From Rhodococcus sp. 1163 (GTDB taxonomy: Bacteria > Actinomycetota > Actinomycetes > Mycobacteriales > Mycobacteriaceae), in the NCBI RefSeq assembly GCF_002091985.1, contig NZ_MKKX01000014.1:1-60912 (forward strand): a DNA stretch of 60,912 bases, written 5' to 3'. Below are positions 15,302-44,584 of the stretch, in pieces; within the stretch, counting starts at the first letter, position 1; each line of letters begins with the position of its first letter. The notes beneath the pieces are model-generated. The model was given only the letters and a program-made list of their open reading frames with translations. It was not told the DNA's origin and made no database searches. The position numbers and the translations under genes were made by a program.

Positions 15302-15329
15302 CCGGAACACAGGGATACAGATAAGCGCA

Positions 15330-15357
15330 GTTATCGCACCGTCAAGATGTCTTGACG
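15330..15357 (+). repeat. Left copy of a 28-bp direct repeat with a hairpin core
   Basis: It reads GTTATCGCACCGTCAAGA and then TGTCTTGACG. The second half contains the perfect palindrome CGTCAAGA-TG-TCTTGACG. The same sequence, 24 of 28 bases identical and in the same orientation, is found at 29610-29637. It lies 29 bases after the MFS stop codon and just outside a decayed recombinase gene. It could be an attachment-site remnant or a shared terminator-like element. Confidence 0.55.
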
Positions 15358-15381
15358 TGAGGCGCGCCCTCTGGCCGGCTT

Positions 15382-16884: not shown

Positions 16885-16941
16885 GATCTACCGGCATTGC
16901 AATCGCGAGCCCGTAGCAGTCCCTCTCCGGAAGAAGAGCCG

Positions 16942-17985
16942 ATGAGCCTGGTTGACGCCTCAGACATGATCGTTGAACAACGCCCCCTCACCGACCACAG
17001 CAGCACCGACCGCCGGCTCGTCCACCGCAGCGCTCTGAGTGAGGTGTTTCTGACAGACGCAGTAGCCGAGGACGCGCTCACGTACATTGTGGCCGCCCAG
17101 CTACCCCCGTCTCATGCTTACTTCACCGACCATCTGTCCCGTCGCGGCGGCATAGACCCACTGCTGCTACTCGAATGCTGCAGGCAGGCAGAGACGTACG
17201 TCTCGCACCGGTATTTGGACGTGCCGCTCGGGTATAACTTCATTCTTGCGTCGTGGTCGATGAGCTTCGAGAATCTTCATTATCGAAACAGGATCGAGCA
17301 GTGTGTATCTCTCCGGCTGAGTGTCCATACCGAGGTCCCGCGCTACATCGCCGGACAGCTTCGGTCCGTGACATTTCGGATCGAAATTTCGACGGCAACT
17401 GCCGTTCGGCTCGGCACCGTCGCGATGAAGGTGAAGTACACCTCCAAGGAGGTGTACCGAGCACTGCGCGAGAGCCGCAGGGGTTCTGCGCCCAAGATGA
17501 ACACAGAACTGCCGGGTGCCCGGCACGGAGTGGTGGAAGCAGTCACAGTAGGTCGGCTCTCGGCGCAGAACGTGGTGCTCTCCGACCTCAGGCACACCCC
17601 GAACGGGATCAAGGCACAGGTATGCCCCGCGTTCGACAACCCCAGCTTCTTCGATCACCCGCAGGACCACGTCCCGGCCATGGTGACTGTCGAAGCCGTA
17701 CGTCAGCTCGCACTGCTCGCCCTCGCCGACGAATGTGGTCTTTCTGCCATGCACACACAGGTCAGCGCAATCGAGGGCACCTTCTACGACTACATCGAGC
17801 TCGACACGACCACTGAGCTGACCGTCGCAGAACTCACTACACGTGTCGACACAGATCACCCCGGTGCGCTATTCCGCTCAAGGCTGCACGTGGACGTCGA
17901 ACAAGAGTCGAAGACGATGTGCCGACTGGTCATGGAACTGATCACCGCCCGAGGCTCGATCACTCCTGCGGCGATGACGGCATGA
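16942..17985 (+). CDS. AfsA/ScbA-family butyrolactone-type signal synthase homologue
   Basis: A 347-residue protein with two AfsA hotdog repeats. The first has VHRSALSEVFLTD, PPSHAYFTDHL, DPLLLLECCRQAETY and VPLGYNFIL. The second has VLSDLRHTPNG, then HPQDHVPAMVTVEAVRQLALL. These match streptomycete AfsA/ScbA, which condenses a beta-ketoacyl-ACP with dihydroxyacetone phosphate on the way to butyrolactone or furan signals. ATG 16942 is preferred over the upstream ATG at 16849 because GGAAGAAGA precedes it by four bases and the upstream part is unlike the family. It overlaps the next gene by 4 bases (ATGA) and is first in the cluster. The product structure cannot be read from sequence. Confidence 0.88.
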   Translation: MSLVDASDMIVEQRPLTDHSSTDRRLVHRSALSEVFLTDAVAEDALTYIVAAQLPPSHAYFTDHLSRRGGIDPLLLLECCRQAETYVSHRYLDVPLGYNFILASWSMSFENLHYRNRIEQCVSLRLSVHTEVPRYIAGQLRSVTFRIEISTATAVRLGTVAMKVKYTSKEVYRALRESRRGSAPKMNTELPGARHGVVEAVTVGRLSAQNVVLSDLRHTPNGIKAQVCPAFDNPSFFDHPQDHVPAMVTVEAVRQLALLALADECGLSAMHTQVSAIEGTFYDYIELDTTTELTVAELTTRVDTDHPGALFRSRLHVDVEQESKTMCRLVMELITARGSITPAAMTA

Positions 17986-19028
17986 AGATCGGCAGTCCAC
18001 TGCGCGTCGCGGCGGTTGCAGTACAGAAACCGGACACGGCGGTTACGACTACGCACGCAATCGAACTGAAGCGCACGGACGATCACGACGCCGATCGCAC
18101 CGGCATCAACGAGCTGCCGGTCTCGACAATTGCTTCCGGCCCGGATCTGGCAGTAGGTGCTGCCCGGTCCGCGTTGGCAGCTGCGCGATGGGAACCTTCG
18201 TCGCTGGACTTCATCGGGCACGCCTGGATTCACCACCAGGGTCACGACTTCTGGTCTCCGGCGCATTTCGTCGCAGACTCCCTCGGCGCACATCGTGCCA
18301 TGCCGGTCGGCATTCAACAGATGTGCAACGGCGGAGCTATGGGACTCGAACTTGCAGCGACGCGGCTGCTCGCCGACCCCACGGCACGACGCGCTCTGGT
18401 TACCACCGGAGACCGATTCGCAGACGAGGGCTTCGATCGTTGGAAAGGCGACTACGGCGTCTGGTACGGCGACGGCGGTACCGCATGCCTGCTCGAACGA
18501 GCAGACATCGTGAGCCCCCACGACGTCACGTTGCGCTCCATCGTGTCCAAGGCAATCCCCTCGGTCGAATCACTGCACCGCGGGGTCGACGAATTCACCC
18601 CCGCAGCACGCTGGCTGTCGCCAACCACTGACGTTCGACGAACCAAAAAGGGATATATCGACGCCCGCGGACTCGACGAATTCCATCGAATTTCGCGCGC
18701 TGCCCTCAGAGAGGTTGTGGCACAGGCCGTGTCAGAAGCCGGCATAACACTAGGCGACCCGCGGATCTCATCGATCACAGTTCCGCGTGTGGGCCGCACG
18801 CTGATGCAGGAAACCTACGCGAGTGCTCTCGACGGCATGACCAAATCGCACGTGAGCTTCACCGCCGCGCAGTCCGGGCATCTCGGTGCCGGAGATCTCG
18901 CAGCGAACATCGAGCACGTCGAGAGAACAGCCCCCGAACTCGACGGACACATCGGTCTATTCGTCTCGGCAGGCGGAGGATTCACCTTCACCTGCGCGGT
19001 CATCGCCTTCGGTGCAGGTGCTTGGTGA
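17982..19028 (+). CDS. Atypical ketoacyl-ACP synthase III-like protein
   Basis: A 348-residue thiolase-fold protein. The nucleophilic Cys is in IQQMCNGGAMGLEL (about 115). Where FabH has the His of HQAN this protein has VPRVGRTL, and where FabH has GNTSAAS it has GHLGAGDLA. That pattern belongs to a FabH-like subgroup of actinobacterial biosynthetic clusters, in which some members act as acyltransferases rather than decarboxylating condensing enzymes. Loss of the usual His suggests altered chemistry, such as acyl transfer or condensation without decarboxylation. The ATG lies inside the stop of the AfsA homologue, and it is coupled to the flavoprotein gene. Confidence 0.82.
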   Translation: MKIGSPLRVAAVAVQKPDTAVTTTHAIELKRTDDHDADRTGINELPVSTIASGPDLAVGAARSALAAARWEPSSLDFIGHAWIHHQGHDFWSPAHFVADSLGAHRAMPVGIQQMCNGGAMGLELAATRLLADPTARRALVTTGDRFADEGFDRWKGDYGVWYGDGGTACLLERADIVSPHDVTLRSIVSKAIPSVESLHRGVDEFTPAARWLSPTTDVRRTKKGYIDARGLDEFHRISRAALREVVAQAVSEAGITLGDPRISSITVPRVGRTLMQETYASALDGMTKSHVSFTAAQSGHLGAGDLAANIEHVERTAPELDGHIGLFVSAGGGFTFTCAVIAFGAGAW

Positions 19029-20614
19029 CCGCCCGAGTTCTGGTGGTCGGAGCTGGTCCCGTTGGTCTGACCACAGCCTGCGAACTGGCACGTCAGAACA
19101 TCGCCGTACGGATCGTCGATCGGCAGACCTCACCCTCGATTCATTCTCGCGCAGCGGTAATTTGGCCCCGCCAGCTCGAACTTCTACGTCGAATCGAAGT
19201 GACATCCGATCTCATCGGCGCAGGCCATCGCCTCGACAACGTCTCGTTCTATTCGGAAGGTAGACGCAGAGGCGGTATCGTCCTGTCCCGTCTCGAAAAC
19301 AGCATTCACCCCTATGCCATCACCATCCCGCAGAATGCCACCGAGCGCATTCTCGCTGCCAAGCTCAGGTCGTACGGCGTCGAGATCGAACGCGGAACCG
19401 AACTACTCCATATCGACAACGGGCATGACGAGCCATATGCCACATTGCGCTCGAAAGACGCTGCGCTGGAGGGCGCGTCGTTCGACTGGGTCATCGGTGC
19501 TGACGGTGCACACAGCTCAGTCCGCCGGCTGCTCGGCGTTCCCTTCACCCCGACATCGACCGATCTTCGGTTCGGCATCTGCGATGTGGCGGTTGCCGAC
19601 GGCCCCGCGAACACGGCGATGCATTACTACTACTCGCCCACGGGTGCGATCGGGCTAGCTCCGATGCGACACGGCATCTACCGAGTCGCGATGAGCGTCC
19701 CCGCGCGAACAGCCGACGGTGCAGTGCCCCCGCCGCCTGTTCGTGAGGATTTCCAACATGCACTCGATACCCGAGCACCGGGGGCCGGAACCCTCGACAT
19801 ACCAGAATGGGCTGCGGCATTCGACGTGAGGTTCGGGACAGCCGAACGCTTCCGAGAGGGTCGGTGCTTCCTGGTCGGCGACGCTGCCCACATCATGAGT
19901 CCTGCCGGCGGCCAGGGGATGAACACCGGTCTGCAGGACGCGGTCAACCTCGGTTGGAAGCTGGCCGCTGTCATCTGCGGCCACGCAGACCGTTCGCTGC
20001 TCGACACCTACGAGACCGAGAGACGCTCCGCGGCCCTTCACATCACCAGATCGACAGGGGTGCAGTTGCGTCTCGGACTGGTCGATGGACCGATTCGCAG
20101 ACGGGTCCGGGACGTCGCCATCACGCTCGCCGATCGCACCGGTGTCCTCCAACGTGTCGGGGCTCCGATTTTTTCGCAGCTCGACGTCACCTACTCGAAT
20201 GCCCGCCGACCGGCTCTCGTCTCGACCTTGGAGGTGGGAGACCGATTCCCCGCATTTGCGCCCGACCCCGCCGCGGACACTTCAGGTGAGACCGGGTCGT
20301 GGCCGACCCTCGACTGTGACCGGCTCACACTCGTACTGTGGCCCGGCGTCGACCCCATCCAGGGATGGAGCACGTTCGTTCGCGGCACGGCAGCTGCTCT
20401 CCCTGAAATCGCCTGTGTCGACGGCGGTGGAATTGGCAACAATGCCCTGACCGCTCACCTAGGCCGAAAGCCTCGCCTCTTCCTCTGCCGTCCGGATGGC
20501 CACTTGCTGATGAGATCCGCGCTCGACATACGCAGGGGCGCACAGCATGCCGTACGCACAATCGGTCCGCACACTCTGCAAGCACAGACCTCCCAGAAAG
20601 AAACCACCGCATGA
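19025..20614 (+). CDS. FAD-dependent monooxygenase (PHBH/RdmE class)
   Basis: A 529-residue class-A flavoprotein. The FAD-binding motif is VLVVGAGPVGLTTACELAR (residues about 5-23), the second is VIGADGAHSSVRRLLG, and the GD motif is FLVGDAAHIMSPAGGQGMNT, read with GLQDAVNLGWKLA after it. The C-terminal thioredoxin-like domain is typical of enzymes such as PgaE/MhpA that hydroxylate aromatic or polyketide substrates using NADPH and oxygen. GTG 19025 overlaps the previous stop (GTGA), so it is preferred over the TTG one codon earlier. It overlaps FabH by 4 bases. In the cluster it is the likely oxidative tailoring enzyme. Confidence 0.88.
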   Translation: MTARVLVVGAGPVGLTTACELARQNIAVRIVDRQTSPSIHSRAAVIWPRQLELLRRIEVTSDLIGAGHRLDNVSFYSEGRRRGGIVLSRLENSIHPYAITIPQNATERILAAKLRSYGVEIERGTELLHIDNGHDEPYATLRSKDAALEGASFDWVIGADGAHSSVRRLLGVPFTPTSTDLRFGICDVAVADGPANTAMHYYYSPTGAIGLAPMRHGIYRVAMSVPARTADGAVPPPPVREDFQHALDTRAPGAGTLDIPEWAAAFDVRFGTAERFREGRCFLVGDAAHIMSPAGGQGMNTGLQDAVNLGWKLAAVICGHADRSLLDTYETERRSAALHITRSTGVQLRLGLVDGPIRRRVRDVAITLADRTGVLQRVGAPIFSQLDVTYSNARRPALVSTLEVGDRFPAFAPDPAADTSGETGSWPTLDCDRLTLVLWPGVDPIQGWSTFVRGTAAALPEIACVDGGGIGNNALTAHLGRKPRLFLCRPDGHLLMRSALDIRRGAQHAVRTIGPHTLQAQTSQKETTA

Positions 20615-21603
20615 ACTCTGCAGCAGTCTTGAGCGGGCTGGGTCCGTGGCTACCGCCCACGGTTGTCACCAACGCCATGCTCGCCGAACGCTTCGACACC
20701 TCCGACCAATGGATCACGAGCAGGACCGGGATCGAGCAACGCCACGTCGTCACAGGCGGCCTGGCAACCAGTGACATGGCGGTCGAAGCCGGTATGCGCG
20801 CGATGAAATCAGCTGGCACCGACCGCGTCGACATGCTCATCGTCGCAACCACCACCCCGGACCGTCGTTGCCCAGCAACGGCACCCGAAGTTGCCGCAAG
20901 GCTCGGGCTGGACCGGATCGCGGCATTCGACGTTGCCGCTGTGTGCTCAGGATTCCTGTATGCCCTCAGTAGCGCCGTCGGTGCTATCGCGTCTCGGCAA
21001 GCTGACACAGTGCTGGTCATCGGGTCGGAGTCGTTCACGACACTTCTCGATCCTGCGGATCGGTCGACCAATGCCATTTTCGGTGACGGTGCCGGTGCCG
21101 CCATCGTTCGCGCGGGTGACCGAGACGAACCAGGTGCCATCCTGAGCCTCGACCTGGGCAGTGACGGGTCGCTCGCCGATCTGATCGCAGTCGGTGGGGG
21201 AGGATCGCGCACCCGTCCGGAGAATCCCGAACTCGACCCGTATTTCCGAATGCAAGGCGGCGCAGTCTTTCTCGAAGCGGTACGCAGGATGGAAGAATCC
21301 ACCCGAGCCGTTCTGGCTGCCACCGGATGGGCAACCGATGATCTCGACAGACTGGTCGGACACCAAGCCAACCTACGGATCATCACCGCGTTGGCCGAAC
21401 AACTCGACCTGCCGGCAGAGGCAGCGGTGACCAACATCGACCGAGTCGGCAACACTGCCGGCGCGTCCATCCCCATTGCCTTGGTCGACGCCGTGGACAC
21501 CGGTCGGATCAAGCCTGGCCACAAGGTAGCTCTCACCGCGTTCGGCGGGGGTGCCACCTGGGGCGCGGCAACTCTCGTCTGGCCCGAGATCGACATCATC
21601 TGA
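20611..21603 (+). CDS. 3-oxoacyl-ACP synthase III (FabH-like)
   Basis: A 330-residue condensing enzyme with the complete FabH triad: Cys in DVAAVCSGFLYAL (about 112), His in VGHQANLRII, and Asn in GNTAGASIP. The early motif SDQWITSRTGIEQRH is also canonical. It normally joins an acyl-CoA starter to malonyl-ACP to begin fatty acid or polyketide synthesis. The start codon overlaps the flavoprotein stop (ATGA). With the ACP and FabF downstream it gives the cluster its own chain-initiation system, so it is unlikely to be the housekeeping copy. Confidence 0.92.
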   Translation: MNSAAVLSGLGPWLPPTVVTNAMLAERFDTSDQWITSRTGIEQRHVVTGGLATSDMAVEAGMRAMKSAGTDRVDMLIVATTTPDRRCPATAPEVAARLGLDRIAAFDVAAVCSGFLYALSSAVGAIASRQADTVLVIGSESFTTLLDPADRSTNAIFGDGAGAAIVRAGDRDEPGAILSLDLGSDGSLADLIAVGGGGSRTRPENPELDPYFRMQGGAVFLEAVRRMEESTRAVLAATGWATDDLDRLVGHQANLRIITALAEQLDLPAEAAVTNIDRVGNTAGASIPIALVDAVDTGRIKPGHKVALTAFGGGATWGAATLVWPEIDII

Positions 21604-21652
21604 CAGCGCCGTCAAATACAGCACTCCCGACATCTCCATCGAAAGGAACATT

Positions 21653-21904
21653 GTGACCACGACCCTTACCACCCTCGGAAGTATCCTGTCGACCAAGTTC
21701 GACGCACCCGAGTCCGACCTGGTTCCCACGGTGACCTTCGAGGAACTCGGACTCGATGACTCGCTCACCCTCGTAGAACTCGCTGTGTCCATACAACGCG
21801 AAACCGGCGCACGGCTCGAAGACGGTCAACTATATCCCGACCAAACCCTCGGCGGTGCAGCAGCTCTCATCGATTCGGTACTCCTCGAATCCGTGCACAC
21901 ATGA
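21653..21904 (+). CDS. Free-standing acyl carrier protein
   Basis: An 83-residue carrier. The phosphopantetheine attachment Ser is in ELGLDDSLTLVELAV (about Ser37), with the typical acidic surroundings and a helix 2 that follows; the C-terminal helix is GGAAALIDSVLLE. It starts with GTG at 21653, preceded by GAAAGGA, and its end overlaps FabF by 4 bases. It presumably carries the chain built by FabH and FabF and delivers beta-ketoacyl groups to the AfsA homologue. Confidence 0.85.
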   Translation: MTTTLTTLGSILSTKFDAPESDLVPTVTFEELGLDDSLTLVELAVSIQRETGARLEDGQLYPDQTLGGAAALIDSVLLESVHT

Positions 21905-23133
21905 CCACTCTCCGACCCCCGAGCGTCGTCATCACTGGCATCGGCTTGCTCACCCCAGCCGGCCGCGGAGTCGAAGCCAACTGGGAACGGGTCCTCAGTG
22001 CGGTGTCCACCTCGGCCGCGGATCCCACTCTCGGTGAGGCTGCATGGGCAATGTCGTGCACCGTGCCCCATTTCGACCCCCGCCGTGAACTAGGGCCGGG
22101 AAAATCGTGGAAAGTGGACAGGTTCGCCCAGCTCGCGGTAGTCGCCGCCCGTGATGCCGTCCTCGATGCCGGACTCGACCACAAGACCTGGGACGGTGCC
22201 AGAGTTGCTGTCGTACTGGGTAACTCGCTCGGCGGTTGCACAACCTACGAAGCTCAACAAACGGTGCACGCCGACGAAGGTGCCGACCTCGTGTCACCAC
22301 TGCTCGTACCGATGTGGATGCCCAACATGGTCGCAGGATACGTAGCGATCGACATCGGAGCCCGTGGACCGAGCATGGTGACTGCAACCGCATGCGCATC
22401 AGGCACGACCGCCATCGGGACAGGACGTGACCTGCTGCGTTCCGGCACGTGCGACATCGCAGTAGTCGGCGGAGCAGAAAGCGCACTGTCGCCTACGATC
22501 ATGGCCGGTCTCGCCAGAATGGGGGCCTTGTCCACCCGCCGAGACGGCTCGGACACTGCGTCGAGGCCGTTCGACATCAGCCGAGACGGATTCGTCGCCG
22601 CCGAAGCCGCTGGAATCTTGATACTCGAACGGCAGAACGACGCCGTGGCCAGACACGCTCGTATGTACGCAGCGGTCACCGGCTACGCGGCGACCTCCGA
22701 TGCCCACCACGTCACAGCCCCCCGCCCCGACGGAGCCAGCCTCACTGCCGCCGTCCGTGCGGCAATCCGCGACGCGGAGCTCACCGAAAACGACATTGCC
22801 TACGTCAACGCGCACGGCACGTCGACCCCCCTCAACGACAAGGCCGAAAGCCAGGCGCTGCACCAAGTGTTCGGATATCGCACTGCCGTGAGTTCGACCA
22901 AGGGTGTGACGGGTCATGCACTTGCCGCTGCAGGCGCCATCGAAGCGGCGTTCACCGCGCTGGCGATACGCGACAACACCGCTCCGCCTACAGCGAATCT
23001 CGATATCCAGGATCCCGCGGTCGAGATCGATGTGATCTCCAAAACCCCGCGATCACTCGCGATCGACTCTGCACTGAGTGTGTCCGCCGGTTTCGGTGGA
23101 CACAACGCAGTGATCGCCCTGTCTGCGATCTGA
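21901..23133 (+). CDS. 3-oxoacyl-ACP synthase II (FabF-like)
   Basis: A 410-residue ketosynthase with the Cys-His-His triad: Cys in VTATACASGTTAIG (about 165), His in VNAHGTSTPLND and His in GVTGHALAAAG. The glycine-rich C-terminal SAGFGGHNAVI is intact. It elongates acyl-ACP with malonyl-ACP. No chain-length-factor partner is beside it, so it should work as a FabF-type homodimer. It is translationally coupled to the ACP gene. Confidence 0.92.
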   Translation: MTTLRPPSVVITGIGLLTPAGRGVEANWERVLSAVSTSAADPTLGEAAWAMSCTVPHFDPRRELGPGKSWKVDRFAQLAVVAARDAVLDAGLDHKTWDGARVAVVLGNSLGGCTTYEAQQTVHADEGADLVSPLLVPMWMPNMVAGYVAIDIGARGPSMVTATACASGTTAIGTGRDLLRSGTCDIAVVGGAESALSPTIMAGLARMGALSTRRDGSDTASRPFDISRDGFVAAEAAGILILERQNDAVARHARMYAAVTGYAATSDAHHVTAPRPDGASLTAAVRAAIRDAELTENDIAYVNAHGTSTPLNDKAESQALHQVFGYRTAVSSTKGVTGHALAAAGAIEAAFTALAIRDNTAPPTANLDIQDPAVEIDVISKTPRSLAIDSALSVSAGFGGHNAVIALSAI

Positions 23134-23178
23134 GTCCCGGAACCCCACGTCCACCCCGATCTACTAGGAGCCTTCGAC

Positions 23179-24201
23179 ATGCGACAACGACTGTTCACAC
23201 CACACGGACCCTCCCTGGGAGCTGTGGGCCTCGGCTGCATGGGTATGAGCTGGGGATACGCTGAATCGAGTAGAGACGACGCCGAATCGGCCGCGGTGAT
23301 CAGCGCTGCTCTCGACGCGGGTATCTCCATGATCGACACCGCCGACATCTACGGCGACGGGCACAACGAAACCGTTGTCGCCCAGGGAATCAAGGGACGC
23401 CGAGACGAGGTTTTCCTCGCCACCAAATGCGGCCTGGTCGTCGACGATCTACCTCGCAAACAAATGCACCGCGACGGCAGTCCACGCCATATCGCGGAGG
23501 CGGTGCGCGCAAGCTTGACCCGGCTCGACGTGGACAATATAGACCTGCTGTATCTGCATCGAGTCGACCCCGCAGTCCCACTCGAAGACACCTTCGGCGC
23601 AATGGCGCTGCTCGTCGAGCAGGGCTTGGTGAAGTATCTCGGCCTCTCTGAGGTGACCGTCTGGCAAGCCGGCGCGGCCAATGCGATCCATCCTGTGTCC
23701 GCTGTTCAGTCCGAGCTGTCGCTGTGGACCCGCGACGCTCTGGGGTCGGCGACCGATTCTCACGGCGCGAGCCCCGCTGCATCACCGCCGGGTGCAGGTG
23801 CCTCGGTAAGCGGCGACGTTGTAGGTTGGTGCCGCACCAACGGGGCAGCGTTCGTTCCGTTCGCACCCCTCGGGCGCGGATTTCTCACCGGGGCCGTATC
23901 GGACGGGGTGTTCGAGGACGGAGACTTTCGGGCGACCAACCCCCGCTTCGCCCGCCACGCGTTGACTCAGAACCAGCGCATCGTCGACGTGGTGACCGAG
24001 GTCGCCCACTCTATCGGTGCAACCCCTGCGCAGGTATCGATCGCCTGGACACTCGCATGTGGCGATCACGTCATCCCCATCCCGGGCACGCGCAAGCTCA
24101 CGCACCTCTCCGACAATGCCGGGGCGGCGGACATCGTTTTGAACGCAGAGGCATTGCGGGCGCTGGGCGAAGTCCCCGAGACAGTCGGATCCCGTTACTG
24201 A
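23179..24201 (+). CDS. Aldo/keto reductase
   Basis: A 340-residue NADPH-dependent reductase with a TIM-barrel fold. The catalytic tetrad is visible: Asp in MIDTADIYG, Tyr in the same motif, Lys in LATKCGL, and His in LYLHRVDP. It ends with the cofactor-binding IPIPGTRKLTHLSDN. Between SLWTRDALG and GWCRTNG there is a Ser/Ala/Gly/Pro-rich insertion of about 20 residues near the normal 190s region, absent from typical relatives. AGGAG lies eight bases before the ATG. In the cluster it would reduce a carbonyl or the double bond of an intermediate. Confidence 0.9.
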   Translation: MRQRLFTPHGPSLGAVGLGCMGMSWGYAESSRDDAESAAVISAALDAGISMIDTADIYGDGHNETVVAQGIKGRRDEVFLATKCGLVVDDLPRKQMHRDGSPRHIAEAVRASLTRLDVDNIDLLYLHRVDPAVPLEDTFGAMALLVEQGLVKYLGLSEVTVWQAGAANAIHPVSAVQSELSLWTRDALGSATDSHGASPAASPPGAGASVSGDVVGWCRTNGAAFVPFAPLGRGFLTGAVSDGVFEDGDFRATNPRFARHALTQNQRIVDVVTEVAHSIGATPAQVSIAWTLACGDHVIPIPGTRKLTHLSDNAGAADIVLNAEALRALGEVPETVGSRY

Positions 24202-24240
24202 ACGCACGAGCGCGCCGAGAAATTAGCCGGCATGTACATA

Positions 24241-24266
24241 TACTGATAAGTATCAGTACACTGATA
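24241..24266. promoter_or_regulatory. Overlapping palindromic operators before the MFS gene
   Basis: TACTGATA-AG-TATCAGTA (24241-24258) is a perfect palindrome. Its right half forms a second one, TATCAGT-AC-ACTGATA (24251-24266). A related site, ACTGAT-N4-ATCAG, with identical spacing lies at 28635-28650 just before marR. These are probable MarR-type operators controlling the exporter half of the cluster. Confidence 0.7.
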
Positions 24267-24305
24267 TAACCCAATCCGGATCGCCGTGCACCAGGAGAGC
24301 AATCG

Positions 24306-25928
24306 ATGACCACCACCAATGAACAAGCGCCTCTGCTGAGAGGCGCTTCTGCCGCGACACTGATCGCGGCGTGCATGATCGCAGTACTGTTTCCGACGTC
24401 GATCACGGGCACATCGGTTACGCTGCCTGACATTTCGAGTGACCTCGGCGGCGGAGTCGCCGGACTGCAATGGGTCGTACACGCCTACGACCTCACCTTC
24501 GCCGCGTTTCTACTGGCCATGGGATCGCTCGCCGACGTACTCGGGCGACGACGCGTCCTGATGTTCGGCTTGGCCTTGTTCGGAGCAGGATCCATCGCTG
24601 CGGCGTTGTCCTTTAACCTGCTCTTCCTCGATCTCGCGCGCGGCCTTACCGGGATCGGTGCCGCAGCGGCCTTCACCAGTGTCGCTGCCGCCCTGGCCAA
24701 CGCGTTCGATGGTGCAGCCCGCGCCAAAGCATTCGGAGTGTTCGGCACGTGCTTCGGGATCGGCCTCGCGTTCGGACCGCTCCTCGGCGGCGGTATGAGC
24801 AGCTCGCTGGGGTGGAGGTACTTCTTTGCAGTACAGGCTTTGGTAGCAATAGCCGCCTTGATTTTGAGCAGTCGCGTGACGGCGACGGCCACCGTCAGCA
24901 ACACTCGTGTCGATTGGGCCGGAACCGCCACGTTCGTCGGTGCCTTGTTCTTACTGATTCTTGCTCTCGTCGAGGGTCCACAGCTCGGCTGGGGATCGAT
25001 CGGCACCATCGCCATGTTCGTCGGTGCGGCTGCTCTGCTGGCAGCGTTCGTCATCGTCGAACATCGGCAGGCCGCGCCGATGTTCGACCTGGCTCTGTTC
25101 CGATCGCGCCAGTACGTCGCAGTGTGCCTGTCACCGGTCGCCTTGGCGTTCGGATTCGTCGCACTCTTGGTGTTTCTGCCGACCTACTTCATTGCAGTCG
25201 ACGGCCGGACACCTTGGGACGCCGGCCTTCTGATGCTCCTGCTGACCGCCCCGACGCTGGCGATGCCCGCAGTCGCCGGAAACCTCGCCGCGAAGGGCGT
25301 TACCTACCGGACACTGCTGATCACGTGCATGGTTCTGGTCGGCGGCGGAACTTTGTGGCTACTCACGTTGAGTGCCGGGATGCCGCTCTGGGAGCTGGCA
25401 GGGCCGCTCGTCGTCATCGGAATAGGTTTCGGAATCTCGAACGGAATCCTCGACGGGGCAGCAGTGAGCTCGGTTCGGCCCGAACGAGCAGGCATGGCCG
25501 CCGGCATGTTCGGAACCATGCGTATCACCGGCGAAGTGGTCGCCATCGCCGCGATGGGATCACTGATCGTCAGTCTGACGTCACGCCAACTCGGCGAACG
25601 CATCGACGGCCTCGCTGGAACGGCGTACGCGCAGGACCCGGCTGGACTCGCGAACTCGATGGCCAAGGGAGATCTCACCACGCCCGCCCAGGGACTGACG
25701 ACAGACGCACAGTCGACGTTCCATGCCTTCGCTTCGGATATCTACAGCTCGTCACTGCACCAGGTCTTCGTCATTCTGGCTGCATGCTGCCTGGTCATGG
25801 TGCCCATCCTCTGGGTTCTACTACGTGACGACAAGTCCCCCACGTCGGACGACAGTGCACCGGTTTCGGCAGCCGCGAACAGTTCCGCAGACGCCGCGCC
25901 CACCGGTCAGGTGCTCACGCATGAGTGA
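24306..25928 (+). CDS. MFS exporter, DHA2 (14-helix) family
   Basis: A 540-residue transporter. The N-terminal helix 1 ends in TSVTLPDISSDLGG, GSLADVLGRRRVLMFG is motif A, and GTCFGIGLAFGPLLGG is motif C, which marks drug/proton antiporters. About 14 helices can be drawn, with a polar C-terminal tail. AGGAG precedes the ATG. It lies right after overlapping palindromes and its last 8 bases overlap the HAD phosphatase start, so it heads a second transcription unit of the cluster. It is the probable exporter of the cluster product. Confidence 0.92.
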   Translation: MTTTNEQAPLLRGASAATLIAACMIAVLFPTSITGTSVTLPDISSDLGGGVAGLQWVVHAYDLTFAAFLLAMGSLADVLGRRRVLMFGLALFGAGSIAAALSFNLLFLDLARGLTGIGAAAAFTSVAAALANAFDGAARAKAFGVFGTCFGIGLAFGPLLGGGMSSSLGWRYFFAVQALVAIAALILSSRVTATATVSNTRVDWAGTATFVGALFLLILALVEGPQLGWGSIGTIAMFVGAAALLAAFVIVEHRQAAPMFDLALFRSRQYVAVCLSPVALAFGFVALLVFLPTYFIAVDGRTPWDAGLLMLLLTAPTLAMPAVAGNLAAKGVTYRTLLITCMVLVGGGTLWLLTLSAGMPLWELAGPLVVIGIGFGISNGILDGAAVSSVRPERAGMAAGMFGTMRITGEVVAIAAMGSLIVSLTSRQLGERIDGLAGTAYAQDPAGLANSMAKGDLTTPAQGLTTDAQSTFHAFASDIYSSSLHQVFVILAACCLVMVPILWVLLRDDKSPTSDDSAPVSAAANSSADAAPTGQVLTHE

Positions 25929-26646
25929 GCCCCAGGAGTGCATAGGCCGCAACGGAGTTGCCTTCTTCGATGTCGACGAAACACTGTTGACCATAAAAAG
26001 CATGGTCTCCTTCTACCGATACCATTGCGTGAATCTCCCAGCGGCCGAGCGACACACCCGACTCGATCGTCTCGACGACCTACTCGAATCCGGAATTCCG
26101 AGAGAACGCGCCAACACCGATTTCTATCGCCTCATCGAAGGCACGTCCGTCGCTGAGCTGGCGGAATCAGGCCGTCGATGGTTCACAGATGTTGCCATCC
26201 CAGCGCTGAACACCTCTGTCCTGACCCGGCTGCAGTCGCACAAGCAGCAGGGCCACGCCATCGTGTTGGTGTCCGGGTCGTTTCCAGCGTGCCTGAACCC
26301 TGTCTCGGCATACGTCGGTGCCGATATGATCCTTTGTTCGCGACCAGCCGTCGCCGAGGGGCGCTACACAGGCCGCCTCGCAACGCCCATGATCGGTAAC
26401 GGCAAGGCAGCTGCGGTGGCCGACATTCTCGACACGATTCCCACTTCGGCCCCGAGCTGGGCCTACGGCGACCACGAGTCCGACCTTCCGATGCTTCTGC
26501 TCGTGGACAACCCCGTCGTGGTCGGCGCCGACGCGGTGCTGAACACCACTGCTGTGCAGCGCGGCTGGGACACCATCGAAAGCACCGCCCACGGACTGCG
26601 CCCCGCCGCGGATACCGCGGCCCCGATCCCGATTGGCACCCTATGA
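25921..26646 (+). CDS. HAD-IB family phosphatase (SerB-like)
   Basis: A 241-residue hydrolase with all HAD motifs: the nucleophile and acid/base Asp in FFDVDETLLT (Asp17, Asp19), the Ser of VLVSGSFP, the Lys in GNGKAAAV, and the metal-binding AYGDHESDLPML. These enzymes remove phosphate from small metabolites such as phosphoserine. In butyrolactone and furan signal routes a phosphatase (for example MmfP, a HAD protein) dephosphorylates the AfsA-derived intermediate, so that role is proposed here. The ATG overlaps the exporter gene by 8 bases and the stop overlaps the next start. Confidence 0.88.
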   Translation: MSEPQECIGRNGVAFFDVDETLLTIKSMVSFYRYHCVNLPAAERHTRLDRLDDLLESGIPRERANTDFYRLIEGTSVAELAESGRRWFTDVAIPALNTSVLTRLQSHKQQGHAIVLVSGSFPACLNPVSAYVGADMILCSRPAVAEGRYTGRLATPMIGNGKAAAVADILDTIPTSAPSWAYGDHESDLPMLLLVDNPVVVGADAVLNTTAVQRGWDTIESTAHGLRPAADTAAPIPIGTL

Positions 26647-27878
26647 CGTCGTATTCGGCATCAGACATCGCGGACCGCATCGAAGGTGCTGCAGGTGTGA
26701 GCTCGCCTGGGCAGCCTCAGCCGCCAGGTGCAGAGTGGTTGTACCTGCGCTACCTCAACAGAGCGCACGCCATGGCCGTGAGCAGGTACGCCGACAGTGC
26801 ATCCATCGACTCCGCAATGCGCGGCGCGTGCCGGCTCACATTCGGACCGGCCCAACTCCGCGCACACCACGATCGCGACGTTCTCGCGCGGTGGTCGAAA
26901 AATCTCGACGCCGAGATCGACGGGAACGCCCGCAATCGCTCCTACAGTGCCCCGAACACCCACCCTGCCGGAGACGACGAGCAGGTCGAGCCGATGTCTG
27001 TCCGTTCGGTGGGAATCGTCGGCACAGGCATCATGGCAACGGGTATCACCCAGACCTACTTGGCAGCGGGGATAGACGTCAGCGTCGCCTCGCGGTCCAC
27101 CGAGTCGTCCGCGAAATTCAGTGCGAACCTCGACCGAGCGCTGACAAGACAACGCATCGACGACAACACCCGGGCAGCAATAACCGACCGAGTCCACGTC
27201 GCCGAGGGGTACGGACACCTTCGGACTTGTGATCTGGTGATCGAGTGTGTCGCGGAGAATTTCACCACCAAGACAGCAGTGTTTTGCGCACTCGATCGCC
27301 TGTGTCCCAGCACAACTGTCCTCGCCACAACCACATCGAGCCTGCAAATCTGCGACATCGCAGCCTTCACCGACACCCCGACGCGGGTCATCGGCATGCA
27401 CTTCTTCAACCCTGCGAACACAATGCCGCTGATCGAACTCATCGCCACCCACAAGAGCGCCCCGCGTACGATCACGATCGCCGAAAACGCCGCAAAACTG
27501 GCAGGGAAAGAAGTGGTGCGTTGCGGAGACCGTCCCGGCTTCATCGTCAATGCCCTGCTCATTCCTTACCTCAACGACGCGCTGCGCGTTCTGCGCACGA
27601 CCCGAAACGCACCTGACCTCGACTGCACAATGCGTCGCTTCGGGTTCCCCATGGGGCCCGTCGCGCTCCTCGAGCTGATCGGCCTCGACGTCGCACTCAC
27701 CATCCAGCACACCCTGAAGGCTGCATTCGGTGACGATGAGTCGGTACCGGATCCACTGCTCGCCGCGTTGGTAGAAAACAACATTCTGGGCAGGAAGAAC
27801 CGAACCACCGTCGCGGAGTTTCTGGCGGCGGCTACGCCGGCGACCGACGTGAGCAGACGATCGGTGAATAGCCTGTGA
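26643..27878 (+). CDS. 3-hydroxyacyl-CoA dehydrogenase with N-terminal extension
   Basis: A 411-residue protein. Residues from about 120 form an ordinary 3-hydroxybutyryl-CoA dehydrogenase: VGIVGTGIMATGI for NAD binding, ATTTSSLQICDIA, the catalytic His in GMHFFNPANTMPLIEL, then the 3HCDH C-terminal domain (RPGFIVNALLIPYLNDAL; GFPMGPVALLELIGLDV). The first 115 residues (LYLRYLNRAHAMAVSRYADS; SAMRGACRLTFGPAQL) look like a degenerate second copy of the C-terminal domain placed in front. An internal ATG at residue 118 would give the normal length. It overlaps both neighbours by 4 bases. It would reduce or oxidise a beta-hydroxy/keto group in the pathway. Confidence 0.85.
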   Translation: MTSYSASDIADRIEGAAGVSSPGQPQPPGAEWLYLRYLNRAHAMAVSRYADSASIDSAMRGACRLTFGPAQLRAHHDRDVLARWSKNLDAEIDGNARNRSYSAPNTHPAGDDEQVEPMSVRSVGIVGTGIMATGITQTYLAAGIDVSVASRSTESSAKFSANLDRALTRQRIDDNTRAAITDRVHVAEGYGHLRTCDLVIECVAENFTTKTAVFCALDRLCPSTTVLATTTSSLQICDIAAFTDTPTRVIGMHFFNPANTMPLIELIATHKSAPRTITIAENAAKLAGKEVVRCGDRPGFIVNALLIPYLNDALRVLRTTRNAPDLDCTMRRFGFPMGPVALLELIGLDVALTIQHTLKAAFGDDESVPDPLLAALVENNILGRKNRTTVAEFLAAATPATDVSRRSVNSL

Positions 27879-28621
27879 ACGCCCCCCTGCCGAGTTCACT
27901 GCCGCGCGTAGTCGACACAGCGGTCACTCGCCTCCTGACCGCAACGGAGCTCGTCGTCGACGGCTTCACAGCCGGAGAGCATTTCCAGACCTGGTGCTAC
28001 ATCGTCACGGACCCCGGAACATCGCAGTCCGTTGTCATCGATCCCGGCCAAGGTGCAGCTCGAGTCGTATCCGAACACCTACGGCTGCACGGGTTGGATG
28101 CAGTCGCTGTCGTGTTGACACACGGCCACATGGACCACAGCTGGGATGCGGTCCCCCTCGCATCCGAACTCGACGTACCTCTAGGTATCCATCCCGCCGA
28201 CGAGCAATCTCTGGTGAACCCCGAAGTGCTACTGCCGGAGGACTTCCCGAACAGTGCGTTGGCCGACTACCCCCGCGTCCCGGCCCGCCGCCGGCTCGAA
28301 CTCCTAGACGGAACGATAGTGGCAGTCGGAGTACTGCAGGCTCGCGTCATCAGCATCCCCGGCCACACCCCGGGGTCGGTGATGTTCTCGATCGACGCCC
28401 CGCACGCTGCTCTGTTCGCGGGAGACAGTCTCCACCATTTCGGGCCAGGACTCGCTGCACCTCCAGCCGGTGACCGCTCTACTCTGCGCAAATCGCTTGG
28501 GCGGGTTCTACCCCAACTCCCCGACACCACCGTGATCTTCAATGGCCATGGACCACAGACCTCAGCAGCCGAGTGCAGACGTCCGGCGCACAGAAAGGCA
28601 CACCAGGTATGGTCGATCTGA
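27875..28621 (+). CDS. Metallo-beta-lactamase-fold hydrolase
   Basis: A 248-residue zinc hydrolase of the glyoxalase-II-like group. The metal motif is VLTHGHMDHSWDA (HxHxDH), followed by the His in IPGHTPGSVMF, the Asp in LFAGDSLH and the final His in IFNGHGP. Such enzymes cleave thioesters or lactones. In this cluster it could release the product from the carrier, or open a lactone as AiiA-type lactonases do; the sequence does not decide. The GTG overlaps the previous stop (GTGA). Confidence 0.87.
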   Translation: MNAPLPSSLPRVVDTAVTRLLTATELVVDGFTAGEHFQTWCYIVTDPGTSQSVVIDPGQGAARVVSEHLRLHGLDAVAVVLTHGHMDHSWDAVPLASELDVPLGIHPADEQSLVNPEVLLPEDFPNSALADYPRVPARRRLELLDGTIVAVGVLQARVISIPGHTPGSVMFSIDAPHAALFAGDSLHHFGPGLAAPPAGDRSTLRKSLGRVLPQLPDTTVIFNGHGPQTSAAECRRPAHRKAHQVWSI

Positions 28622-28634
28622 CATTGTCGACCCC

Positions 28635-28650
28635 ACTGATACCCATCAGA
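28635..28650. promoter_or_regulatory. Likely MarR operator upstream of marR-type gene
   Basis: ACTGAT-ACCC-ATCAGA ends 28 bases before the MarR start codon. It repeats the ACTGAT-N4-ATCAG arrangement of the perfect operator at 24241-24258, suggesting autoregulation. Confidence 0.5.
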
Positions 28651-28678
28651 GCCCTGGCTCACAATATGAAGGCCCACC

Positions 28679-29134
28679 ATGGTGAGCAAAGCAGACAGCG
28701 CGACCATCCAAGCCGAGATCGCGGCACGCATCGGAACCGACATCAAACGGGCCGAAGTCGCGCTGATTGCTCGCAAGACCAATGCGCTGAAGCCGTTCGA
28801 TATCACTGTTCCCCAGTACGCCGCTTTGATGACGCTCTATCACTCACCAGGATCGTCGAGCGCACAGGTCGCTCGAGCATGCATGGTGACCGCCCAGACC
28901 ATGAACACAGTGTTCAAAAACCTGGAATCGAAAGGCTTGATCGTCCGCACCCCCTCCTCGGTGCATCAGAAGGTCCTCGTGACAGAACTGACGAGATCGG
29001 GGCGTGCCTTACTGATGAAAGCAGACAAGGTAGCTCGGACCATCGAGGGAGAACTTGCGGACGAATTCAGCGCCGATGAGCGAGCGGCACTACATTCACT
29101 TCTCGAACGTGCGATAAAGAACCTCAGTCGATAA
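28679..29134 (+). CDS. MarR-family transcriptional regulator
   Basis: A 151-residue winged-helix regulator. ITVPQYAALMTLYHSPGSSS, then AQVARACMVTAQTMNTVFKN, forms the helix-turn-helix, and LESKGLIVRTPSS with the HQKVLVTELTRSG wing follows; this is the canonical MarR layout. It lies 57 bases after the hydrolase gene in the same direction. Its own upstream region and that of the MFS exporter share a palindromic motif, so it probably represses the exporter unit and itself, and is released by a cluster metabolite. Confidence 0.9.
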   Translation: MVSKADSATIQAEIAARIGTDIKRAEVALIARKTNALKPFDITVPQYAALMTLYHSPGSSSAQVARACMVTAQTMNTVFKNLESKGLIVRTPSSVHQKVLVTELTRSGRALLMKADKVARTIEGELADEFSADERAALHSLLERAIKNLSR

Positions 29135-29220
29135 CGCATTGCAAGATTATCTCCTACTGAGGCCAGCCTTACGGGCAATTCATTACGACCAAAAGAGTCC
29201 TTCAACCAGATTGGACAGTT

Positions 29221-29610
29221 ATGTCGGTAATTCCGGAGTCACACGTGGATCTTCTCACCAGACCGCTGTATGCCCATCTGGCGACGATCCGTCCCGATGG
29301 GTCGCCGCAGGCCAACCCCATGTGGTTCAACTGGGACGGCACGCACATCAGGTTCACGAACACGACCACACGGAAGAAGTCCCGGAACGTCGCCCACGAG
29401 CCTCGTATTGCTTTCTCGGTCAACGACCCTGATCAGCCCTATAGGTACCTCGAAGTCCGAGGTCTTGTCGTAAATGTAGAGCCCGACCCAAACGCAGAAA
29501 TTTTCATGGCACTGGCAGATCGGTACGACCTGGCAATGTCTGGCCCGCCGGGTGACGCACCCGACCGGGTCGTGTTCGTTGTCGAACCAACTTCGGTCAG
29601 TTATCAATAG
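29221..29610 (+). CDS. PPOX-class F420/FMN-dependent enzyme
   Basis: A 129-residue split-barrel flavoprotein. YAHLATIRPDGSPQANPMWF is the start of the pyridoxamine-phosphate-oxidase-like fold, RFTNTTTRKKSRNV the cofactor-phosphate binding segment, and RYLEVRGLVVNVEPD the next strand pair. In actinobacteria such short PPOX proteins (TIGR03618 type) often use F420 or FMN to reduce unsaturated bonds. It is the last gene before the right 28-bp repeat. It could reduce an enone or butenolide in the pathway, but a general redox role is equally possible. Confidence 0.85.
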   Translation: MSVIPESHVDLLTRPLYAHLATIRPDGSPQANPMWFNWDGTHIRFTNTTTRKKSRNVAHEPRIAFSVNDPDQPYRYLEVRGLVVNVEPDPNAEIFMALADRYDLAMSGPPGDAPDRVVFVVEPTSVSYQ

Positions 29611-29637
29611 TTACCGCACCGTCAAGAAGAGTTGACG
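29610..29637 (+). repeat. Right copy of the 28-bp direct repeat
   Basis: It reads GTTACCGCACCGTCAAGA and then AGAGTTGACG, 24 of 28 bases identical to 15330-15357 and in direct orientation. Here the hairpin arms shrink to CGTCAA/TTGACG. It begins at the last base of the PPOX stop codon and closes the biosynthetic region. Confidence 0.55.
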
Positions 29638-30020: not shown

Positions 30021-30845
30021 TCACGGTGGGAGAACCTTGGAAATTGCAGGCTTGATTTCCTTGTCAGCGTAGAAAGCGATGTAGTCAATTGGTCGGAAGT
30101 TTCGCCCAGGTGGGCAGATGTAAATCGAGCTGTTCTCGTAAAGCGCCCATGCCGAGGTTGCAGGAACCACCAGCGTGTCGAGAGGGGTGACGGGGCGGTC
30201 CCGATACAGGTTGGTGACTCGTTCTCGTTGGACCAACCATGCACGGGCAGACGGGCTGATCCACTCTGTGAGGGTAAGCATCTCTTCAAGTTGAAAAAGA
30301 ACGTCCTGCGCGAGCAGCGAGTCGTGGTGCGCAAGACGGTTCCGGAATGGTCTCAGGCGTTCTAGCAGGGTCATCACGTTCTTACGGCGACCGGCCGCCG
30401 TGCCCGGCAACGCAGCGCTGAGTGCAGCTCGCCACAGATCTTCGTGTTTGGGGCCGAAGAGCTGCGTCCAGAAGCCGAATGAAAGGCCAGCGATAATCTG
30501 ACCGCGCGAGTCTCGACCGTGGCTGATGTTCCTCAATCGGAGGCGTGTGGCCTCGACACTAGTTGTGATGGCGTCGTAGGACGTCCCCGTCACGTACGGG
30601 GTCATGAACCATGGGATCTTGCGCCTGTCTTCTTCGGCGTACTTGTGCAGTTCCCGGTCGATCGCGTTTCGCAACATCACCTCGACGTAGGCCACCACTT
30701 CCATACATGCCGCGGATATCGCGGTGTTCCATGCGTAGAGTTCTAGCGCCAGATCGGTGTCGCCATTGCTTTCCTTCAGGTAAGGATCAAGTCGCTCAGC
30801 GGTAAGAAGCGCGACGAGCTCATCACCGGTACTGGCACCGCTCAC
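30021..30845 (-). CDS. Abi-family protein with HEPN-type motif
   Basis: A 274-residue protein of the Abi_2 (AbiD/AbiF-like) abortive-infection group. The N-terminal part has the usual LELYAWNTAISAACMEVVAY, then VEVMLRNAIDREL. The middle has GLSFGFWTQLFGPKHEDLW, and the HEPN ribonuclease motif RPFRNRLAHHDSLL (R-N-x-x-x-H) is intact. Members are thought to act as RNases that halt phage-infected cells. There is no antitoxin gene immediately beside it; the next gene is 146 bases upstream on the same strand. Its place next to an integrase and IS elements fits a mobile defence gene. Confidence 0.85.
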   Translation of the reverse strand: MSGASTGDELVALLTAERLDPYLKESNGDTDLALELYAWNTAISAACMEVVAYVEVMLRNAIDRELHKYAEEDRRKIPWFMTPYVTGTSYDAITTSVEATRLRLRNISHGRDSRGQIIAGLSFGFWTQLFGPKHEDLWRAALSAALPGTAAGRRKNVMTLLERLRPFRNRLAHHDSLLAQDVLFQLEEMLTLTEWISPSARAWLVQRERVTNLYRDRPVTPLDTLVVPATSAWALYENSSIYICPPGRNFRPIDYIAFYADKEIKPAISKVLPP

Positions 30846-32345: not shown

Positions 32346-33521
32346 CTAGAGCCCAATGTTGTTGACGGCGTTACCTACCAGGGGTGCGTGTTCGCGGCGA
32401 TAAACCTCGACGGAGTCGAGACGGGAGTGGCCCGTTTGGCGAGCGATCGCGGAGCCGTCGGCACCGTTGCGAGTTCCTTGGGTGACGAAACCAGCACGCA
32501 GGGAATGTCCACCGAGTTTGGTCAGCGCGGTGGGATCGAAGCCGGCGTGGTCGGCACGGCGGCGTATGGTCTGGTGAATCGCAGCTCCGGACAACGGAGT
32601 GACTCCAAGGTTTCCGTTCTTCGCGATCGCGCGAAACATCGGTGCTAGTGCGGCGGTGCGCGGGACTCCCCCACGGCATACGTGTGCCACGAACGGTTCC
32701 CCCGTGCGCAGCAGCCGGATAACAGAGGGGCGGCCGCCAGCGTCGAATGCGGCGATGACCTGTATCCAGCGGACGTAGGCGCAGGGTGGGCACGTTTCGT
32801 GAGACTCGGTGTACGGCAGGGCTTTGACCGCTCCTCTGCCCTCCTGGTCGGTCTTAGACTTGCGCAGTCGGATGTGGAGGCCGTCGTGGCGGTGCACGGT
32901 GACGTCCCCGCAAACCAGGTCGGAAAGTTCACTGCGTCGGAAGGCACCGGCGAACCCGAGCAGCAGGATCGCAGAGTCCCGGCGTTCGAGTACCTCATCG
33001 GCCCAACCGCGGCACCGCTTCCTCGCGGTCTCGACAAGGAGTTTGATGTCGTCCACCAACAACGGATCCCGTGGGGTGCGGGGTCGGTCCCCCGCCGCGG
33101 CGTACTCCCGCCGGATTCCGGACAGGGTCGCGGTGACGAGTTCGTGCGCGGACGGCGAGAGGTGTCCGGTGGTGCGGTGCTTAAAGTTGATGGCCGCGAT
33201 CCAGGTGCCGAAGGTGGCGACGGCGTAGACCCGCTCCCCAGTTTCGGTGCGGGTGTCGGCGGCGTCGACGAGGTAGGCGGCGACGGTGATCGGGTGCGCC
33301 GGCAGCGTCACGTGACCATTCGACGCGCACCAGTTGGTGAAGCGTCTCCACGCGGCGGAGTACGTCTTGCGGGTTCCCTCGGAGCGGGAGGACTGCACCG
33401 CGCTCGCGATCCGCTTCGCGACGGCGGGCGGGATCTCCGGCTCGACGGCCACCGACCTGTCACCCTCGGGGAGGCCGGCGGCAGTGATCACCGCGGGTGT
33501 TCGGGCTTGCCACAAGTCCAT
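32346..33521 (-). CDS. Tyrosine-type site-specific integrase
   Basis: A 391-residue recombinase from the ATG at 33521 (MDLWQARTP). The N-terminal SAM-like domain contains GTRKTYSAAWRRFTNWCASN. In the catalytic domain the first Arg is in AFRRSELSDL, the Lys in RLRKSKTDQEG, HxLR is LGGHSLRAGF, the last His/Trp position is TGHSRLDSVEVY, and the Tyr follows as VEVYRREHAP. All catalytic residues appear present, so it may be active. A 14-codon upstream extension of the frame is ignored. It probably mobilises the Abi and hypothetical genes. Confidence 0.9.
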   Translation of the reverse strand: MDLWQARTPAVITAAGLPEGDRSVAVEPEIPPAVAKRIASAVQSSRSEGTRKTYSAAWRRFTNWCASNGHVTLPAHPITVAAYLVDAADTRTETGERVYAVATFGTWIAAINFKHRTTGHLSPSAHELVTATLSGIRREYAAAGDRPRTPRDPLLVDDIKLLVETARKRCRGWADEVLERRDSAILLLGFAGAFRRSELSDLVCGDVTVHRHDGLHIRLRKSKTDQEGRGAVKALPYTESHETCPPCAYVRWIQVIAAFDAGGRPSVIRLLRTGEPFVAHVCRGGVPRTAALAPMFRAIAKNGNLGVTPLSGAAIHQTIRRRADHAGFDPTALTKLGGHSLRAGFVTQGTRNGADGSAIARQTGHSRLDSVEVYRREHAPLVGNAVNNIGL

Positions 33522-33563
33522 GTCGGCAGCGTAACGCAGGTCACCGACGCGTCTGCAGAACAA

Positions 33564-37420: not shown

Positions 37421-37501
37421 GAGACAGGTGTAACCCCAACGTCGTACGCAAGCAAGCACAATGCGGATCGGCGTGTCGCTCCGGCGGTAACAATTCGATG
37501 G

Positions 37502-37514: not shown

Positions 37515-37517
37515 CAG

Positions 37518-44582: not shown

Positions 44583-44584
44583 GA

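Follow-up and report, generated by a model that had tools for sequence, protein, structure and literature searches.

AfsA enzymes are known mainly for making signals whose acyl chain is borrowed. In Rhodococcus sp. 1163, an operon on contig NZ_MKKX01000014.1 of assembly GCF_002091985.1 (60,912 nt, forward strand; the window below) combines an AfsA gene with genes for a FabH, an acyl carrier protein (ACP) and a FabF, which raises the question of what an AfsA protein with such neighbours would make and how the operon came to lie in this genome. We think it fairly probable that AfsA and its own chain-building enzymes, carried in a 14.3-kb unit between two direct 28-bp sites, make a butenolide-type metabolite predicted not to be a standard gamma-butyrolactone signal.

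Operon genes and their order

Eleven genes, from AfsA to a metallo-beta-lactamase-fold (MBL) hydrolase, had been named in the earlier note on this DNA. Pfam and domain scans together with the coordinates placed all eleven where the note had them and in general bore out their identities, except for the first KAS III-like protein, which we predict to be an acyltransferase and not a condensing enzyme. The operon continues in the same direction past the MBL gene with a MarR regulator and then a PPOX-class oxidoreductase, to position 29,610. The natural unit proved larger than the eleven genes (about 15330-29637), its limits being two direct site copies and the ends of a stretch 99% identical in a second species. 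The 13 genes of the unit are the following:

16942..17985, forward strand: AfsA-family protein (PF03756 in two AfsA hotdog stretches)
17982..19028, forward strand: KAS III-fold protein, predicted ChlB3-type acyltransferase (Cys115-His300-Asp305)
19022..20614, forward strand: FAD-dependent monooxygenase (FMO) of the rifampin-monooxygenase/polyketide-oxygenase group (domain matches)
20611..21603, forward strand: FabH (KAS III; Cys, HQAN and GNT motifs by eye)
21653..21904, forward strand: ACP (DSL phosphopantetheine motif by eye)
21901..23133, forward strand: FabF-type ketosynthase (Cys motif and the two His motifs by eye)
23179..24201, forward strand: aldo/keto reductase (AKR; domain match)
24306..25928, forward strand: MFS transporter, predicted exporter (domain match)
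25921..26646, forward strand: HAD-IB phosphatase (domain match)
26643..27878, forward strand: 3-hydroxyacyl-CoA dehydrogenase (HCDH; domain match)
27875..28621, forward strand: MBL hydrolase, glyoxalase II-like (domain match)
28679..29134, forward strand: MarR regulator (domain match)
29221..29610, forward strand: PPOX-class oxidoreductase, TIGR03618, F420-type (domain match)

Neighbouring genes overlap at 7 of the 10 junctions of the eleven-gene run (by 4, 7 or 8 bases) and are separated by gaps at the other three. The overlaps measure 4 or 7 bases among the AfsA, KAS III-like, FMO and FabH genes and 4 bases at ACP-FabF, HAD-HCDH and HCDH-MBL. With refined start codons, HAD begins at ATG 25921, so that its first eight bases lie within the MFS gene, and ACP most likely begins at GTG 21653. 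The gaps are 49 bases (FabH-ACP), 45 (FabF-AKR) and 104 (AKR-MFS) and, downstream of the run, 57 (MBL-MarR) and 86 (MarR-PPOX).

A palindrome search gave tentative candidates for MarR operators:

16834-16847 and 16869-16884, no strand: two palindromes upstream of AfsA
24241..24266, no strand: palindromes upstream of the MFS gene

It should be noted that the quality of the palindrome at 16869-16884 was matched in 26 of 200 shuffles of 15350-16941.

The N-terminal part of the HCDH (~117 aa) resembles, by eye, the remnant of a second dehydrogenase half, and its 592-aa relative in Streptomyces antnestii appears to keep both halves.

A dedicated chain-building trio

AfsA loci were surveyed with one genome per species and flanks of at most 10 kb, some of them cut by contig ends. 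One of the 101 fetched loci had no AfsA match by tblastn and was dropped, and marker genes were counted by bit-score limits anywhere in the fetched locus. The survey found 72 AfsA loci besides the studied one, including a near-identical copy in Rhodococcus sp. G-MC3 (L032).

The earlier inference of a dedicated acyl chain is supported. The other FabH of the host, a single copy elsewhere in the genome, is only 38% identical to the cluster FabH, and the KasA-type enzyme outside the cluster only 35% to the cluster FabF, whereas the counterparts in 31 other AfsA loci holding both genes are 53-61% identical. The comparison thus supports FabH, ACP and FabF as a second, dedicated chain-building trio. 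Loci with both genes include those of Streptomyces, Nocardia, Williamsia and Dactylosporangium. Beyond these 31 and the G-MC3 copy, FabH was matched in three loci (37, 38 and 57%, the last being L048) and FabF in ten (28-46% apart from L048, which gives 59% and whose contig breaks off there). Two further host proteins outside the cluster, with reading frames 1666 and 3117 aa long, are by their size presumably Pks13 and FAS I.

No FabG-type ketoreductase, dehydratase or enoyl reductase was found among the operon genes; therefore, a reduced chain would need host enzymes, and the earlier description of the system as self-contained was too strong. Among the relatives, the Nocardia locus has a short-chain dehydrogenase/reductase that resembles FabG, and FabD-like and carboxylase-like proteins lie upstream in Streptomyces antnestii (both by eye only).

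Acyltransferase or ketosynthase

By sequence, the closest solved structures to the KAS III-fold protein were DpsC (E 1.3e-41) and ChlB3 (E 4.8e-32), with CerJ further down. The top match, DpsC, is a condensing enzyme, which weighs against a role in acyl transfer. The active-site residues were compared in an alignment of 120 rows, made up of the studied protein and 119 of 120 homologues (one shorter than 325 aa was dropped). In PMC9573744, the catalytic set of ChlB3 is given as Cys113, His296 and Asp301. The protein studied here has Cys115, His300 and Asp305, and its His-Asp spacing of 5 equals that of ChlB3. The Cys is present in 112 rows (Ser in 7, Arg in 1), and the His and the Asp in all 120. 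The position of the DpsC Ser carries a Cys in the KAS III-fold protein, and an Arg (Arg269) is invariant in 120 of 120 rows where the alignment puts a DpsC His. Since the Cys-His-Asp set is there with a spacing of 5, and an Arg replaces the DpsC His, we predict acyl transfer and not chain start: the protein is probably an acyltransferase and no ketosynthase. According to the same source, ChlB3 transfers methylsalicyl onto an ACP, and the substrates of CerJ are malonyl and, as acceptor, a sugar (PMC9573744); the two share the Cys-His-Asp set with the present protein, and the invariant Arg269 marks the group described here.

We also considered that both KAS III-like proteins start chains, and rejected this for the first one on its residues, DpsC still being its top structure match. 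If the protein were nevertheless a DpsC-like priming ketosynthase, the operon could make a small type II polyketide that AfsA releases, with the FMO and the AKR acting on the polyketide ring. The better E value of DpsC, the matches of the FMO to polyketide oxygenases and the motifs of FabF, which mark it as a real ketosynthase, are in keeping with this. However, the residues just described speak for a ChlB3-like protein, and neither a second ketosynthase (chain-length factor) nor a cyclase or aromatase was found among the scanned genes, so we regard a polyketide as rather unlikely.

Among 401 family genomes, a relative of the KAS III-fold protein more than 43% identical was found only in G-MC3 (99%). 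Beyond the G-MC3 copy, closer relatives were seen among metagenome proteins, at 60% for AfsA and 73-74% for the KAS III-fold protein.

Relation to signal synthases

E78 and R254 of AfsA are invariant in a 20-row alignment, and we take the matching residues of ScbA to be catalytic. The protein scores 184 bits on the ScbA/BarX equivalog model and does not reach its cut-off of 200. No AfsA match was found by sequence in the structure database at E 0.001, and no AvrD-family synthase (methylenomycin type) among the eleven genes at the same E value. A Pfam scan of 18 neighbouring reading frames showed regulators of the MarR, HxlR and ABATE/CGNR types; a TetR-type receptor was not found in these 18, which are not every frame.

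The AfsA tree was built with a quick method from 101 rows, with several long branches flagged and rows below 200 aa set to be dropped, and it includes no experimentally characterised signal synthase placed by name. One group takes 21 of the 26 rows from loci without such chain-building neighbours, together with the 341-aa type of Rhodococcus, and the studied AfsA stands outside it. Of the five exceptions, two rows are from Erwinia, another two (L045 and L055) fall among the loci with FabH and FabF, and the fifth, L073, is on a 3.3-kb contig. Because AfsA lies outside that group and below the 200-bit cut-off, and the scanned frames hold no TetR receptor, the locus is probably not a standard gamma-butyrolactone signal locus; the earlier suggestion of a product other than a standard butyrolactone gains probable support from the same results.

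Several points weigh against a straightforward assignment. The score lies below the ScbA/BarX cut-off, and the substrate could be another ketose or triose. The nearest protein in the tree is that of Cellulomonas, where no chain enzymes were matched. The label of a six-gene set costs 9 changes on the tree, which points to repeated gain, loss or transfer of this set.

In Rhodococcus jostii, GblA serves to make a butyrolactone-like signal (PMC5735094). The present locus might likewise be an ordinary gamma-butyrolactone signal locus whose extra genes do no more than provide it with a special acyl chain; both hotdog stretches are present in AfsA, and the customary phosphatase and reductase roles might fall to HAD, AKR and PPOX. 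The position of AfsA in the tree and the regulators of the scanned frames do not fit, and an FMO, a KAS III-fold acyltransferase and an exporter are not known to take part in the short route. We therefore judge an ordinary signal locus unlikely and keep to a butenolide of another kind.

Distribution of the gene set

Among the 72 loci, FabH was counted in 33, FabF in 33 and both in 32, the KAS III-like protein in 31 (21 of the 32 with both FabH and FabF), FMO in 29, HAD in 29 and AKR in 30. All six markers were present in 17 loci, namely the G-MC3 copy and 16 of Streptomyces. Nine Streptomyces loci (L035, L036, L038, L039, L041, L043, L046, L047 and L049) carry AfsA, KAS III-like, FMO, FabH, FabF, AKR, HCDH and HAD on a single strand, and in six of them an ACP was matched between FabH and FabF. 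The studied operon differs from them in order, with MFS after AKR, and HAD and HCDH swapped. PPOX homologues (59-65% identical) occur in six Streptomyces loci of the family. The earlier note could name no self-contained system of this composition in a Rhodococcus-like host; a system unique to Rhodococcus was rejected, as relatives are widespread. Conservation is not even across the set: HCDH is present in only 10 of the 72 loci, and MarR and MBL were matched in few, which counts against the explanation preferred here.

The smallest relative is that of Cellulomonas cellasea, with AfsA (44% identical), FMO (55%), HAD (54%) and MarR (68%). From this reduced set, the product of AfsA would be the substrate of FMO and HAD, and MarR would be the regulator of the gene set. 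No close copy was found on plasmids, as none of 158 plasmid records with an AfsA relative reached 60% identity. No characterised cluster of this make-up was recognised in the open-licence literature, so a published one may be missed.

A second, distant AfsA-family protein (25% identical; L036:19946-20947, reverse strand) lies beside the Streptomyces antnestii cluster and is perhaps its signal synthase. AfsA-family proteins of Erwinia were also seen (L077 and L102), with a FabF-type protein and an aldo/keto reductase near that of L077.

Proposed pathway and known counterparts

The genes for a phosphorylated-butenolide pathway are all present: the AfsA domain, a supply of ACP-bound 3-ketoacyl chains and a phosphatase. 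Most likely, AfsA makes a phosphorylated butenolide that later loses its phosphate, is oxidised and is perhaps acylated. FabH would start and FabF lengthen a 3-ketoacyl chain on the cluster ACP, with any full reduction borrowed from the host. AfsA would join this chain and dihydroxyacetone phosphate into a phosphorylated 2-acyl-3-hydroxymethyl butenolide, from which HAD would remove the phosphate, and the FMO would oxidise the enolic ring. These steps of AfsA, HAD and FMO are the part shared with the Cellulomonas relative. The AKR, HCDH and PPOX proteins might adjust the oxidation state. The KAS III-fold acyltransferase would take an acyl group off an ACP and hand it to a hydroxyl or to a second carrier, MBL may be a thioesterase or lactonase, and MFS would export the product, which MarR would sense. 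The roles of MBL, HCDH and PPOX are guesses from family membership.

The salinipostin (spt) clusters of Salinispora and relatives have an AfsA homologue with its own ketosynthase genes and add phosphotriester enzymes. No such phosphotriester enzymes were seen in the operon described here.

The gladiostatin polyketide synthase is alike in its chemistry. Its AfsA-like domain receives the 3-ketoacyl chain of a dedicated ACP and in vitro condenses ACP-bound 3-ketothioesters with dihydroxyacetone phosphate, releasing them (PMC7756379); putative phosphatases are proposed to act next. There, the phosphorylated butenolide synthase domain is fused to the C-terminus of a modular trans-acyltransferase polyketide synthase (PMC7756379). 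In contrast, the operon here has a stand-alone FabH-ACP-FabF, a free AfsA and, in addition, the KAS III-fold acyltransferase, FMO and AKR. The gblA-gblR-gblE locus of Rhodococcus jostii RHA1 shares the genus and an AfsA-family protein; it is a signal locus with a divergent TetR receptor and an epimerase-type enzyme, and no ACP or ketosynthase is among the genes named in the available part of the report (PMC5735094). In the methylenomycin (mmy) cluster described in PMC12593393, a butenolide synthase is fed by MmyC and MmyA of the cluster (acetoacetyl-MmyA), a flavin monooxygenase is present, and the regulatory furans are made by MmfL, an AfsA homologue. However, MmyD, proposed there as the butenolide synthase, resembles AvrD and is believed to act on a pentulose (PMC12593393), whereas the synthase here is of PF03756. 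For the same reason, the island of PMC11195616 was rejected as a counterpart, its synthase being of the MmyD/AvrD type.

A unit bounded by recombination-type sites

The operon is shared with Rhodococcus sp. G-MC3 (G030, NZ_JASISW010000028.1, 57,319 bases) as a sharply limited block: positions 15326-29628 align over 14,305 bases at 98.99% identity, and both ends of this block coincide with the motif AGTTAYCGCACCGTCAAGA. The sites and the genes next to them are the following:

15330..15357, forward strand: left recombination-type site, GTTATCGCACCGTCAA-GATGTC-TTGACG, left limit of the identical block
29610..29637, forward strand: right recombination-type site, GTTACCGCACCGTCAA-GAAGAG-TTGACG, at the right edge of the identical block
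30021..30845, reverse strand: Abi-like protein between the right site and the recombinase (PADLOC PD-T4-5, E 9e-12; Pfam Abi_2 below its cut-off)
32346..33563, reverse strand: tyrosine recombinase, the enzyme that we propose for the sites (the frame is probably translated from its Met at residue 15)

The full 28-bp site reads GTTAYCGCACCGTCAA-N6-TTGACG, with six variable central bases and CGTCAA/TTGACG as an inverted repeat. Its two copies are direct and enclose the 14.3-kb unit, and the motif occurs nowhere else in the window (expected 0.02). Outside the unit, the recombinase gene is 80.2% identical to that of G-MC3, and the chromosome at 39405-57160 aligns in blocks at 75-84%, with a 79-base block at 89% and the last block, at the 5S rRNA, at 90%. 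As the unit is 99% identical between matching sites while the shared chromosome nearby is mostly at 75-84%, it likely moved between species as one piece. At the right site, the sequences of the two contigs diverge just past its left arm, where a strand exchange at the spacer edge would put the break. The neighbouring tyrosine recombinase likely inserted the whole unit at a 28-bp site. This site-bounded transfer of a whole pathway would be the most surprising part of the result. Two observations speak against it: the right site of G-MC3 is without its TTGACG arm, and no empty insertion site was seen, the left flank being whole in none of 40 other genomes (best partial match, 428 bases at 65%).

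Further genes lie beside the recombinase. The 377-aa protein at 30995-32125 (reverse strand) has no Pfam, NCBIfam or PADLOC match and no relatives at E 1e-10 in the 40 other genomes. Between the site-linked recombinase and tRNA-Pro (39500-39574), the reverse strand carries two more tyrosine recombinase genes in tandem and one for an rve-domain transposase (34459-38201). In G-MC3 and in genome G003, the recombinase is within about 0.4 kb of tRNA-Pro.

The proposed recombinase-site system in the genus

A 19-base core of the site, searched with at most 2 mismatches in 41 genomes, gave 53 matches, compared with 4 for the core read backwards. For the pairing with related recombinases, 51 of these matches were entered (two from other families were left out), as were 53 of 69 recombinase rows, leaving out weak, fragmentary and non-genus rows; on reading, none of the rows left out changes the count of 23 that follows. 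Within 50 kb of a related recombinase lay 23 of the 51 matches, involving 19 recombinase genes in 13 genomes, the studied one included. The arrangement was fixed, with 23 of 23 nearby sites on the 3' side of the recombinase gene and on the opposite strand. A site within about 50 kb accompanied 20 of the 30 recombinase rows at least 74% identical and 3 of the 23 rows below 74%. The remaining rows, 10 of 30 and 20 of 23, had no such site, and 28 of the 51 core matches were more than 50 kb from an entered recombinase or on contigs without one, both of which weaken the pairing. By eye, a few of these 28 look like coding sequence.

The shared block could also have been spread by homologous recombination or another element, with the 28-bp end motif a coincidence, for instance a regulator site. 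The motif is indeed short and partly an inverted repeat like such a site, no empty site was found, and the 28 distant core matches lie away from any entered recombinase. On the other hand, both identity limits fall on a motif that is absent from the rest of the window, all 23 nearby copies take the same position relative to the recombinase gene, and the core greatly outnumbers its backward reading. A coincidence therefore seems quite improbable to us, and site-specific insertion remains the preferred explanation.

The related recombinases are ~405 aa long, and at some loci (regions L162-L178) the sites stand in same-direction pairs or rows. Proteins scanned from three of these regions gave Lamassu LmuA and LmuB at L164, a restriction-type ATPase at L167 and no anti-phage match at L165 (one protein scanned). 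In genome G012, some genes between sites read by eye as metabolic.

With a tyrosine recombinase beside same-direction sites, accessory genes between them and 23 of 23 nearby sites on one side, the capture of the whole pathway would be integron-like. However, the recombinase scores only 35 bits against 220 on the XerA/integron-integrase model NF040815, its sole integron-named match, and what was captured is an operon of 14 kb. Around a variable 6-bp spacer, the site has arms of 6 bp, the left arm being extended by 10 bp; an integron attC is a long site, unlike this one of 28 bp. Among the papers listed, none on this recombinase-site system was recognised. Only tentatively do we propose the full picture, in which an integron-like system particular to Rhodococcus, a tyrosine recombinase with 28-bp GTTACCGCACCGTCAA-N6-TTGACG sites, collects accessory genes including anti-phage ones, captured the complete 13-gene pathway as a single cassette and passed it between species, the pathway making an acylated hydroxy-butenolide by AfsA and its own fatty-chain synthase.

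Significance

New butenolide compounds could be sought in a conserved AfsA family with its own chain-building trio, acyltransferase and oxidases, which many Streptomyces carry and rarer actinomycetes carry in part. Meanwhile, the site-flanked unit would offer a concrete case of a pathway moving between species by site-specific insertion near a resident recombinase, a relative of which adjoins anti-phage genes at two other loci.

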